Made by a program: the position numbers and the translations under genes
Shown: piece by piece, positions 9,363 to 58,845 of the stretch
How the letters are laid out: each line of letters starts with the position of its first letter
How positions within the stretch are numbered: the first letter of the stretch is position 1
Notes under the pieces: model-generated
What the model saw: the letters and a program-made list of their open reading frames with translations, nothing else
Databases searched by the model: none
Told to the model about the DNA's origin: nothing
Assembly: GCA_001790515.1 (NCBI GenBank)
Contig: MGCS01000002.1
Location: 137,243-201,242, forward strand
Length of the DNA stretch: 64,000 nucleotides
DNA from: Candidatus Saccharibacteria bacterium RIFCSPHIGHO2_12_FULL_44_22
Lineage (GTDB): Bacteria > Patescibacteriota > Saccharimonadia > Saccharimonadales > Saccharimonadaceae
Direction of reading: 5' to 3'

Positions 9363-10346
9363 CTACTTTTTAGCGCCGTTTACTTCGTAAGAAGTATTTG
9401 TCGCTTCGAAAAAGTTCACTAGTTGCAGCGTATCGTTTGCGCCAGCCATCCATTTTGCTGGATTTGACACTTTGTAGTGTGGTTCAAACCCAAGTTCTTC
9501 CAAACGACGATCAGCCAAGTATTTGACATACTGGTTGATGTAATCACTGTTCAGTCCCAAGATACCGTTTGGTAGTAAGTCCTTATTGTAGGCTTCTTCC
9601 ATTTCGACGCCGTCCAAAATCATTTGTTTGATTTCGCTTGCAAACTCTTCTGTCTGCAGATCTTCGTTCTCTTCCAGAACAGTCAAGATCAGGTTGATGC
9701 CGAATTTGAGGTGCAGTGATTCATCGCGCACCACCCAGTCCATTAGTGACCCGAAGTTTCGAAGTAGATTTCGCTGACGGAACGAAAGCGCCACCATGAA
9801 TCCGCTATAGAACCAGATGCCTTCAAGAATGATATTGTAGGCAACGAGGTTACGAACAAAGTCTTTCTTGCCCTCGGTCGTCGTAATATCCAGCGTATCT
9901 TCGGTCATGCGTTTGATGAATTTTGTTTCAAATTCTTCTTTGCGTGCCATTGAAGGCGTTTCGACATGCGCCGCATAGGCCTGTTCACGATCGATTGGGA
10001 ATGTTTCGAGTACATATTCGAACGACATGCAGTGATTTGCTTCTTCCCACATCTGTTTTGCGAGGTACAGGTGACATTCTGCCGCGTTGACGTATGGATA
10101 CACGCCAAATGCAAGTGCTTTGTTGACAAGCAGTTCGTTTGGATTGAAGTAGCTCATCAGGAACGTCAGCGCGTGGCGCTCTTCATCGCTCATTTTCTTC
10201 CAGTCAGCTAAGTCCTGGCCCAGCTGAATTTCGTTTGGAAACCATGTATTTGCGACTGCTTGGTCGTACAAATCCATCGCCCACTGGTAGTGGACTGGTT
10301 TAAGCAATAGTCCGTCTTGAATACCTGTTCCGAGAATGCCTGCCAT
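9363..10346 (-). CDS. nrdB: Ribonucleotide reductase small subunit, tyrosine-less (class Ic-like)
   Basis: The R2 subunit holds the metal cofactor that starts radical chemistry in NrdA. All six ligand positions can be read: E71, E102, H105 (EANH), E175, E209 and H212 (RDESLH), with family-like spacing (31 residues from E71 to E102). The position of the radical tyrosine, H105+4, is Phe109, and the first carboxylate is Glu where the tyrosyl-radical enzymes have Asp. In known enzymes this combination marks the class Ic Mn/Fe group typified by Chlamydia. The assignment to Ic is inference from residues. Last gene of the nrdA operon, followed by a terminator. Confidence 0.92.
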   Translation of the reverse strand: MAGILGTGIQDGLLLKPVHYQWAMDLYDQAVANTWFPNEIQLGQDLADWKKMSDEERHALTFLMSYFNPNELLVNKALAFGVYPYVNAAECHLYLAKQMWEEANHCMSFEYVLETFPIDREQAYAAHVETPSMARKEEFETKFIKRMTEDTLDITTTEGKKDFVRNLVAYNIILEGIWFYSGFMVALSFRQRNLLRNFGSLMDWVVRDESLHLKFGINLILTVLEENEDLQTEEFASEIKQMILDGVEMEEAYNKDLLPNGILGLNSDYINQYVKYLADRRLEELGFEPHYKVSNPAKWMAGANDTLQLVNFFEATNTSYEVNGAKK

Positions 10347-10404: not shown

Positions 10405-10581
10405 TTATTGGCAGCCTTCACACATAAGGAAGTCTTGTGGATCGATCGGTGCAGCGGTGCCACCGTTTGCCTGCGCCTGATCGTCGGCTGTCGCCTGAGC
10501 AGTTGCCATTGCAGCGTCAATTGCTGCTAGTTTTTCTTCTAGTGTCATTTCGTCGCTGATGATTGCTGATGCGTTTGCCAT
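10405..10581 (-). CDS. 58-aa ORF carrying an RNR-type C-terminal cysteine tail
   Basis: A small ORF between nrdA and nrdB with a clear ribosome site (AGGGGGA) like that of nrdA (GGGGGAAAT). After an alanine-rich helical part (residues 11-40), the peptide ends IDPQDFLMCEGCQ. A C-terminal CxxC just before the last residue is the arrangement of the flexible redox tail that normally ends class I NrdA and re-reduces the active site. The NrdA encoded here ends without cysteine. I infer that the tail has been split off as a separate polypeptide. Gene reality rests on the ribosome site, operon position and CxxC ending, as it is below the size usually annotated. Confidence 0.8.
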   Translation of the reverse strand: MANASAIISDEMTLEEKLAAIDAAMATAQATADDQAQANGGTAAPIDPQDFLMCEGCQ

Positions 10582-10634
10582 AATTGTATTTTCCCCCTAA
10601 TTCGATTTCGTTTCAGTTACTTTTCTTACTGTGT

Positions 10635-13034
10635 TTACACTGTTTGCTTCTTTGCGAATCCAAAGCCTGCTTTTCGTGGGCCGCCACCGCTCGATTCTGC
10701 TTTGTTCACTTTGACAGTACTTTGTTCTGCTGTATGCCGTGGTTTAACATGCAGATAATAGGTTGTTTTCAGACCGCGCTTCCAGGCTGTGCTGTAGATC
10801 GTTGCCATTTCGTCGATGTCGCGTGTTTCAAGGTACATATTGCGGCTAATCGCTTGGTCAACCCACTTTTGCGCTCGTGCCGCGACTTCAATAAATGCGA
10901 ATGGGGACAGCTGGAAGCTTGTTTTGTACACGTCGCGAATCTTTTGTGGGATTGCTTCGATCTGCTGCACGTCACCTTGTGTTCGAAGTACTTCGTCGCG
11001 AACCTCATCCCAGATACCGATCGCCTTGAGGTCGTTGACCAAGTTGACGTTGATTTCAAGGAACTTTCCATTCAACGTTGCCCGGCTAAAGATTTGCGCA
11101 AATTGTGGATCGATACCAGGTGTTGTGCCAACAACGTGTGCAATGTTTGCCGTTGGAGCAATCGCCATTAATGTTGCGTTGCGCATACCTTTTTTGACTT
11201 TTTTGCGGAGAACTTCCCAGTCTAGTCGAGATTTGCGGTTTACTTCAACTTTTACTTTGCGATCTGTCGCAAGTTCGTCAAGTGTATCGAATGGTAAGAT
11301 TCCTTTGCTCCAGCCACTACCCTTGAACGTTGGGTAGCTGCCAAGTCGAGCTGCAAGGTCTGCTGATTCATCAATTGCATTGTAGCTAATGAATTCAGTC
11401 AGCTGATCCATGAGGTCATATGCTTCTTCTGACTCATAGCTATATCCCAACTTTTCGATGACGTCAGTAAAGCCCATCATACCAAGTCCGAGTGCGCGGT
11501 TTTGGATGTTTGAGTGCATTGCCTCTGGGATTGGCGTATTCGTGATGTCACACAGGTTATCCAGTTGGCGAATAGCGCTTTTCGTACTAGCTGCAAGTCG
11601 ATCCCAGTCCCATGTCTTGTCTTCCATCAGGTGCGCCGACAGGTTAATACTTACCAAGTTACAGACAGCAGTATTGTCTTTATCCTGTGGAAGTGTGATC
11701 TCAGTACACAAGTTTGAAAGATGGATTGTGCTCGTGTTGTTGTTGAGTGCACGAACATTGATCGTATCTTTCCATGTCAACCAAGGGTGGCTTGTCGCCT
11801 GGAGTACAGTCAAAATTTGACGATACTGCTCACGCGCACTCACTTTCGCAAAGTCGCGCATCTCACCTTTTTCGGCCATTTTGACGTACTCTGCATAGCG
11901 TTTGCTGAATTCAGCACCATACAGCTCAGGAAGATCCTCAACCGCTGCTGGATCGAACAGGTACCAGTCTTGATCTTTTTCGACGCGCTTCATGAATTCG
12001 TCGCTCAAGAACACAGCGGTGTTTGCAAGGCGCGTACGAAGATATGGGTCGCCAGAGTTTTGCTTGAGGTCGAGGAACTGTGGAAAATTCAGGTGCCAGT
12101 TTTCCATGTACAGTGCCGCTGCGCCAGCTTTTTTACCTTTACGTGACACTGCAAATAGTGCCGTATCGATCATCTTCATGAATGGGATCGGACCAGTCGA
12201 TTCAGTATTTGTCGTCTTGACTGGACTACCTGCCGCGCGAAGTTTGTTCAGGCTAATACCGATACCGCCGGTGCCTTTGGCAATCCACATCACATCACGA
12301 ACGCCTTTGGCGATTGATTCCATGTCGTCTTGGATTTCAAGTAGGAAACAGTTTGATAGTTGCGGGAATGATCCACCAGCGTTAATACGAGTTGATCCGC
12401 CCGGAGAATAATCAAGATTTGCCATGTGCTCGTAAAAGTCGAGTGCCGCAGCCGTCGGGTCGGCTTCGTTAAAGCTAAGGCCCATTGCAATACGCATATT
12501 TGTAAATTGCGGAACTTCGACTGTTTCACCACTAAGGCTGCGAAGACCATAGCGGTTTTTGCTTGTGACTACGCCCAGGTATTTACTCAGATTATCTTTT
12601 GCTGGGTCAATGGCTTTGGCTAGTTTTTTCAGATCAAACAGTTTACCGTTCATTCGCTTGTCAAGCAGTCCATCAGAAATACCCTGCTTTAGATACTCAG
12701 CAAATTTTGTTTCATGCAGCTTTTTTAGCTCTGCAGTATTGTTGTAGTGGCCAAGTATATTCTTGTAGATATTCTTGAGCATTAAACGAGCTGCGATCTT
12801 GTCAAAATCTGGATCGTCTTTGACGTTTTGAAGTGCTGCATGAATGACTGATTCGTCTAACTGCTGCGTTGTAATACCGTCAAACAGTGTTAACTGTACT
12901 TCGGTTGCGACTTGAACAACTTTGCTGATCTGATCTGGCAAGCCTTCGCTTGCTTCGACCAACGCAAGGTTGATCATGTTGGCGTCAAATGGTTCGCGGG
13001 TGCCATCGCGTTTTACCACATGAATTTCGCTCAT
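10635..13034 (-). CDS. nrdA: Ribonucleotide reductase large subunit, without C-terminal cysteine tail
   Basis: Reduces ribonucleoside diphosphates to deoxyribonucleotides together with NrdB. An ATP-cone (residues 1-95) is followed by the barrel with catalytic residues N441, C443 (thiyl radical) and E445 in SNLCTEI. The redox pair is C229 (SNCFLLEI) and C458 (VCNLVSINL), and the radical-transfer tyrosines are in TTYYLHV near residue 753. After this the chain ends in a Gly/Lys-rich stretch with no cysteine, although the family needs a terminal cysteine pair. That pair appears in the next small ORF. Transcription is probably controlled by NrdR (see 13181-13339). Confidence 0.95.
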   Translation of the reverse strand: MSEIHVVKRDGTREPFDANMINLALVEASEGLPDQISKVVQVATEVQLTLFDGITTQQLDESVIHAALQNVKDDPDFDKIAARLMLKNIYKNILGHYNNTAELKKLHETKFAEYLKQGISDGLLDKRMNGKLFDLKKLAKAIDPAKDNLSKYLGVVTSKNRYGLRSLSGETVEVPQFTNMRIAMGLSFNEADPTAAALDFYEHMANLDYSPGGSTRINAGGSFPQLSNCFLLEIQDDMESIAKGVRDVMWIAKGTGGIGISLNKLRAAGSPVKTTNTESTGPIPFMKMIDTALFAVSRKGKKAGAAALYMENWHLNFPQFLDLKQNSGDPYLRTRLANTAVFLSDEFMKRVEKDQDWYLFDPAAVEDLPELYGAEFSKRYAEYVKMAEKGEMRDFAKVSAREQYRQILTVLQATSHPWLTWKDTINVRALNNNTSTIHLSNLCTEITLPQDKDNTAVCNLVSINLSAHLMEDKTWDWDRLAASTKSAIRQLDNLCDITNTPIPEAMHSNIQNRALGLGMMGFTDVIEKLGYSYESEEAYDLMDQLTEFISYNAIDESADLAARLGSYPTFKGSGWSKGILPFDTLDELATDRKVKVEVNRKSRLDWEVLRKKVKKGMRNATLMAIAPTANIAHVVGTTPGIDPQFAQIFSRATLNGKFLEINVNLVNDLKAIGIWDEVRDEVLRTQGDVQQIEAIPQKIRDVYKTSFQLSPFAFIEVAARAQKWVDQAISRNMYLETRDIDEMATIYSTAWKRGLKTTYYLHVKPRHTAEQSTVKVNKAESSGGGPRKAGFGFAKKQTV

Positions 13035-18625: not shown

Positions 18626-18715
18626 TGGCGGAGAGAACAGGATTCGAACCTGCGGTACCATTGCTGGTACACACGCTTTCCAAGCGTGCGCCTTCAACCA
18701 CTCGGCCATCTCTCC
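18626..18715 (-). tRNA. tRNA-Ser(GGA)
   Basis: A complete class II tRNA on the minus strand. The 7-bp acceptor is GGAGAGA/TCTCTCC, the anticodon loop TTGGAAA gives anticodon GGA (reads UCC/UCU), and there is a long variable arm, a T-loop TTCGAAT and an encoded CCA. Confidence 0.97.
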
Positions 18716-50621: not shown

Positions 50622-50664
50622 AGCAAATAGACGCTCCATCGGAGCGTCTATTTGCTTGGCGGAG
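50614..50664. repeat. Perfect 24-bp inverted repeat joining two tRNA-Ser 3' ends
   Basis: Bases 50614-50637 and 50641-50664 are exact reverse complements with a 3-nt loop. The outer part is the tRNA acceptor end (CTCCGCCA) and the inner part AGCAAATAGACGCTCC. On the minus strand it can act as the terminator of tRNA-Ser(CGA), but the stem would include the tRNA 3' end itself. Confidence 0.8.
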
Positions 50665-50746
50665 AGGAAGAGATTCGAACTCTCGGTAGGTTTTACCCCA
50701 CACCGCTTTTCGAGAGCGGCACCTTCAACCACTCGGACACCTCTCC
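50657..50746 (-). tRNA. tRNA-Ser(CGA)
   Basis: Complete class II tRNA on the minus strand. Acceptor GGAGAGG/CCTCTCC, anticodon loop CTCGAAA (anticodon CGA, reads UCG), long variable arm, T-loop TTCGAAT, encoded CCA. Confidence 0.97.
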
Positions 50747-53959: not shown

Positions 53960-54052
53960 TGGCGGAGGAGGGGAGATTCGAACTCCCGCTCCAGATCTCT
54001 CCAGACTAACGATTTAGCAAACCGTCCCCTTAAGCCACTTGGGTACCCCTCC
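53960..54052 (-). tRNA. tRNA-Ser(GCT)
   Basis: Complete class II tRNA on the minus strand. Acceptor GGAGGGG, anticodon stem ACGGT/ATCGT with loop TTGCTAA (anticodon GCT, reads AGC/AGU), long variable arm, T-loop TTCGAAT, encoded CCA. Confidence 0.97.
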
Positions 54053-58755: not shown

Positions 58756-58845
58756 TGGCGGAGAGAGAGAGATTCGAACTCTCGGAACCGTTGCCGGCTC
58801 GACGGTTTTCAAGACCGTTCCCTTCAACCACTCGGGCACCTCTCC
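58756..58845 (-). tRNA. tRNA-Ser(TGA)
   Basis: Complete class II tRNA on the minus strand. Acceptor GGAGAGG, anticodon stem ACGGT/ACCGT with loop CTTGAAA (anticodon TGA, reads UCA), long variable arm, T-loop TTCGAAT, encoded CCA. Confidence 0.97.

Follow-up and report, generated by a model that had tools for sequence, protein, structure and literature searches.

The gene that follows nrdA in the window (the whole 64,000-nucleotide stretch of DNA analyzed here) very probably encodes the C-terminal redox tail of a class I NrdA as a protein of its own, which would work in trans. The source genome (1.23 Mb, 99% complete), whose closest matches belong to Saccharibacteria, contains only one match to this tail. 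The features concerned are the following.

10635 to 13034, minus strand: nrdA, class I ribonucleotide reductase large subunit, 799 aa, ending RKAGFGFAKKQTV, C-terminus without Cys, catalytic residues complete
10593 to 10598, minus strand: AGGGGG, candidate Shine-Dalgarno site of the tail gene, read from the sequence
10405 to 10581, minus strand: putative separate redox-tail gene, 58 aa, ending DPQDFLMCEGCQ (FLMCEGCQ)
10468 to 10542, minus strand: predicted alpha-helix of the tail protein, residues 14-38, a candidate docking element
10411 to 10422, minus strand: C54-x-x-C57 putative redox pair (CEGC), invariant columns, common to fused tails
9363 to 10346, minus strand: nrdB, radical-generating small subunit, 327 aa
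8779 to 9297, minus strand: YecM-family gene, after nrdB
18626 to 18715, 50657 to 50746, 53960 to 54052 and 58756 to 58845: tRNA-Ser genes

On re-reading of the sequence, the coordinates, strand, length and FLMCEGCQ terminus given for the small protein in the original prediction were reproduced. The tail ORF starts 53 nt beyond the nrdA stop in a different frame and, as had also been claimed, has its own ribosome site, TAGGGGG, approximately 11 nt upstream of the ATG. The window has five tRNA genes, and all but one are tRNA-Ser genes (GGA, CGA, GCT, and TGA).

NrdA belongs to class I according to its match to NCBIfam NF005101/PRK06539 (1321.6 bits, cut-off 988), and Pfam assigns to it an ATP-cone and both large-chain domains (lgN and lgC). 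The catalytic set was predicted to be complete, and all of its residues were found (C229, N441, C443, E445, C458, and Y759-Y760). The C-terminus is free of cysteine as predicted: the protein has cysteines at positions 229, 443, 458, and 495 only, the last of them at 495 of 799 aa. The NF005101 match reaches profile position 791 of 822, and the unmatched end of the profile is the region where fused members carry the tail. The C-terminal redox CxxC typical of class I NrdA is therefore not found in the same chain; the pair sits in the next gene. In NrdB, cysteines are present at positions 91 and 106 only, so NrdB provides no substitute tail. A tail supplied by NrdB or by a second genomic copy was rejected, as NrdB has no C-terminal Cys and the genome holds the single tail match. 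The presence of Phe109 at the usual tyrosyl-radical position of NrdB, together with Glu as first metal ligand, suggests a class Ic-like cofactor.

The tail protein had no Pfam or NCBIfam match above cut-off. AlphaFold predicted a helix comprising residues 14-38 and a C-terminus of low confidence, which is what a mobile tail would give. In the model of a readthrough chimera of NrdA and tail (locus L004, stop read as Gly), the helix had pLDDT values of 76-80, and the end of NrdA, the junction, and the CxxC were of low confidence. Six positions are invariant in 27 aligned split tails from Saccharibacteria and Ktedonobacteria: L18, I21, D47, P48, C54, and C57. Comparison of the window tail with that of L002 (Nei-Gojobori) gave Ka 0.078 and Ks 1.49 (Ka/Ks about 0.05), and pN was lower than pS in 2414 of 2415 pairs of Saccharibacteria-type tails. 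Judged by these substitution patterns, the tail gene is under purifying selection. A chance ORF was ruled out by conservation, selection, and the control with fused loci. The terminal CxxC following the tail motif and the homology to fused tails place the protein in the tail family. It does not resemble NrdJb, the class II Cys-rich domain with 150-230 aa and several conserved cysteines, as it has 58 aa and two cysteines. Neither is it of the NrdH, glutaredoxin, or thioredoxin type, which combines a thioredoxin fold with an N-terminal CxxC; here, one helix is predicted together with an unstructured end and a C-terminal CxxC.

A search of relatives for fused homologous tails, proposed in the original prediction, was successful (L138, L079, and L205). 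The fused Actinomycetota NrdA L138 has the tail end SACPIDPQERLQCESCQ, and the fused NrdA L079 has ACPVDPMERLQCESCQ. Among the split tails, that of Dictyobacter (L066, Ktedonobacteria) ends in SACPIDPMERLQCESCQ and that of Schumannella (L077) in VPVDPMDELQCESCQ; the compared end of the window tail is APIDPQDFLMCEGCQ. In another patescibacterial family, fused GDPNLNICESCQ (L205) corresponds to split GDPNLNVCESCQ (L208), the latter located behind nrdB. Split and fused tails are, by comparison of their residues, recognizably one sequence and homologous.

The 80 best related loci and those of later surveys were searched for a separate ORF ending in CxxC. The related NrdAs without a terminal Cys pair numbered 121 distinct sequences. 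In 114 of them a tail ORF lies at most 2.9 kb downstream, in three, on viral contigs, it lies just upstream of nrdA, and in one (G891) it is 32.7 kb distant. The remaining three loci (L032, L065, and L073) are broken or end too soon on truncated contigs. All assessable tail-less NrdAs were thus accompanied by a separate tail gene (118/118; 114 downstream, 3 viral upstream, and 1 unlinked), whereas none of 67 distinct fused-NrdA loci had a separate tail-type ORF in the same scan; the search pattern requires CxxC, so that Cys conservation within the scan is given by construction, but the presence/absence contrast is not. This complementarity and the matching tails of fused sister enzymes bear out, at the level of sequence, the central claim that the 58-mer is a separately encoded redox tail. 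Relatives in which NrdA carries the Cys pair and the ORF is not conserved had been named as the case against it. The opposite was observed: either NrdA ends in CxxC or a separate CxxC ORF exists.

On the genome level, nrdA is present in 20 of 61 relatives, and the tail is present in all 20 of those; the divergent tail of G034 was confirmed by reading locus L104. The other 41 of the 61 Saccharibacteria-order genomes have no detected nrdA of this family, and among them a credible tail was seen only in G014, a 67%-complete assembly. The genomes of Schumannella and L078 each have a single gene of this large-chain Pfam family, and therefore no second enzyme of that kind covers for the split one. 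No named phages with close NrdA relatives were found, and the plasmid NrdAs were all below 60% identity.

Joining of the tail to NrdA by programmed frameshifting, stop readthrough, or protein splicing was considered, which would yield an ordinary covalent tail. In many Microbacteriaceae, the nrdA stop and the tail start share 1 or 4 nt, and the tail continues the nrdA frame beyond one stop in several Saccharibacteria. However, the window tail is 53 nt off, in another frame, and has its own ribosome site. Moreover, the tail is located after nrdB in one Saccharibacteria clade, before nrdA in phages, and 32.7 kb from nrdA in G891. The variable gene order rules out frameshift fusion as a general explanation, and covalent joining is hardly credible.

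It is also very unlikely that the peptide is another accessory factor of the reductase, such as an Sml1-type inhibitor or a thiol or metal chaperone for NrdB. Its small size, helical character, and position within the operon would suit such a role, and CxxC pairs are known from metal chaperones as well. However, the peptide is present exactly where NrdA is tail-less and absent where the tail is fused, its last 14 residues match the fused tails of sister enzymes, and the shortest forms (22-25 aa) barely exceed the tail motif. Practically negligible is the probability that a redoxin or small thiol recharges the NrdA active site directly, with the ORF as a dispensable relic. DTT can do so in vitro (PMC4520616), but the tail ORF shows purifying selection and is kept universally through changes of gene order, even in a reduced genome of 0.9 Mb.

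A class I enzyme emerges from turnover with an active-site disulfide, which is reduced by the C-terminal CxxC, and the tail in turn is reduced by glutaredoxin or thioredoxin (PMC3483043, PMC5704485). With the tail encoded separately, nucleotide reduction by NrdAB would oxidize C229/C458 to the disulfide. The separate tail would be kept near NrdA through its helix or the NrdA GFGF terminus, and its CEGC pair would insert and exchange with the C229-C458 disulfide. The oxidized tail would then be re-reduced by a protein resembling glutaredoxin/NrdH or thioredoxin. Electron delivery would become an intermolecular step involving a third subunit. The most obvious candidate docking element is the predicted tail helix. 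Microbacteriaceae tails have no helix, and a contact shared by all forms would therefore have to involve the DP..C..C motif or its surroundings, or the GFGF terminus of NrdA. The tail of yeast Rnr1 reportedly acts on the neighboring subunit, which makes action in trans plausible. Since DTT can reduce the active sites of class I and II enzymes in vitro without a tail (PMC4520616), a tail-less NrdA is in itself no proof of dependence on the tail.

A candidate reductant in the source genome is a glutaredoxin-like protein with the motif WCAFC (G000:C10:25507-25692). The thioredoxin-family match above cut-off (G000:C2:87828-88049, L265) has the motif PWCSQC and an N-terminal membrane-anchor-like segment, which raises the question of the cytosolic RNR reductant.

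As a more tentative extension, to which we assign slightly less than even weight, the tail could be a dissociable third subunit, in some lineages of 22-35 residues. One pool would then serve many NrdA molecules, and its level or redox state could set turnover, under the control of the cell or of a tail-carrying phage. The mobile Cys tail, a standard feature in textbook accounts of class I RNR, is difficult to study owing to its disorder in structures. If the tail works in trans, an essential internal electron relay is now a contact between two proteins. Tail affinity, stoichiometry, Cys chemistry, and specificity for thioredoxin or glutaredoxin would be measurable directly by adding a short peptide. 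The results also suggest that in many genomes a gene of 22-78 codons, probably essential, is missed by annotation, and that the enzyme can be split repeatedly at the tail junction.

With regard to ARRANGEMENTS and origin, the orders recorded were nrdA-tail-nrdB (window clade, Ktedonobacteria, and Microbacteriaceae), nrdA-nrdB-tail (a second Saccharibacteria clade), tail-nrdA-nrdB (viral contigs), and unlinked. Tails of Microbacteriaceae are as short as 22-41 aa, and in many cases their genes overlap with the stop of nrdA. In G891, a 0.9-Mb genome from the Microbacteriaceae survey, the tail (G891:C1:830812-830829, L263) lies beside murB-like and MaoC-like genes. At L030, a very Cys-rich ORF of 25 aa (MHMNESNNCTCTCDCCKDCKSCTTK) begins 6 nt past the nrdA stop, ahead of the tail gene. 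The window NrdB is 84-89% identical to NrdB of Microbacteriaceae and 88% to that of Ktedonobacteria, but only 69-73% to that of the nrdA-nrdB-tail Saccharibacteria, and NrdA has the opposite pattern. These opposed identities suggest replacement or transfer of nrdB.

A 77-row NrdA tree calculated without the tail columns requires three transitions between the fused and the split state. In a 32-row tree, the split Microbacteriaceae and phage enzymes have the fused actinobacterial enzymes as their sister group. With this tree and L208, the three changes are either three separations or two separations and one re-fusion. That the split arose only once within the NF005101 lineage was rejected, as an all-split clade failed the AU test (p 0.0018). 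According to these trees, there were at least three gains or reversals of the split, which recurs in other bacteria and in viruses. In two viral contigs (L216:2892-3983 and L217:2797-3982), an ORF of ∼315-321 aa with intein-like start and end lies between the tail gene and the tail-less nrdA; the LAGLIDADG_3 cut-off is passed by L216 and not by L217. This ORF may be connected with the separation of the tail. On a third viral contig (L225:4709-8360), the tail ORF lies upstream of an nrdA of 1120 aa with an in-frame insert of roughly intein size.

In 2015, NrdJa/NrdJb was called the only split RNR in a non-viral organism (PMC4520616), and Burnim et al. portray the C-termini of class I enzymes as disordered tails with two cysteines and report splits only for class II (PMC9669993). 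No earlier report of a stand-alone class I tail was found in the open-access literature searched. To this extent the earlier statement that no class I split this small is known was upheld; as to size, smaller tails of 22-41 aa exist in Microbacteriaceae. Split class I genes of phages are reported in connection with introns, inteins, or homing endonucleases (PMC3653736). Such genes resemble the present case in that large-chain genes are broken into separate ORFs, but those breaks involve fragmented coding regions, and no description of a stand-alone tail peptide was found there. The comparison with class II NrdJab of Pseudomonas made in the original prediction was appropriate, as NrdJb supplies thiol exchange in trans (PMC4520616). 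In NrdJa/NrdJb of Pseudomonas and other Proteobacteria (PMC4520616, PMC5704485), catalytic and thiol-exchange parts are likewise on separate genes, and the turnover cysteines act in trans. However, NrdJa/NrdJb is class II and B12-dependent, whereas the system described here is class I. NrdJb is a Cys-rich domain of 229 aa with a predicted zinc finger, in contrast to a tail peptide of 22-78 aa with no homology seen between them. The closest likeness in terminal motif, position in the catalytic logic, and homologous sequence is to the ordinary class I NrdA CxxC tail, as in the fused enzymes of Actinotalea, Intrasporangium, and Phytoactinopolyspora. There the tail ends NrdA itself, whereas here it has its own gene, and the separate tails of Saccharibacteria and Ktedonobacteria add a conserved helix.
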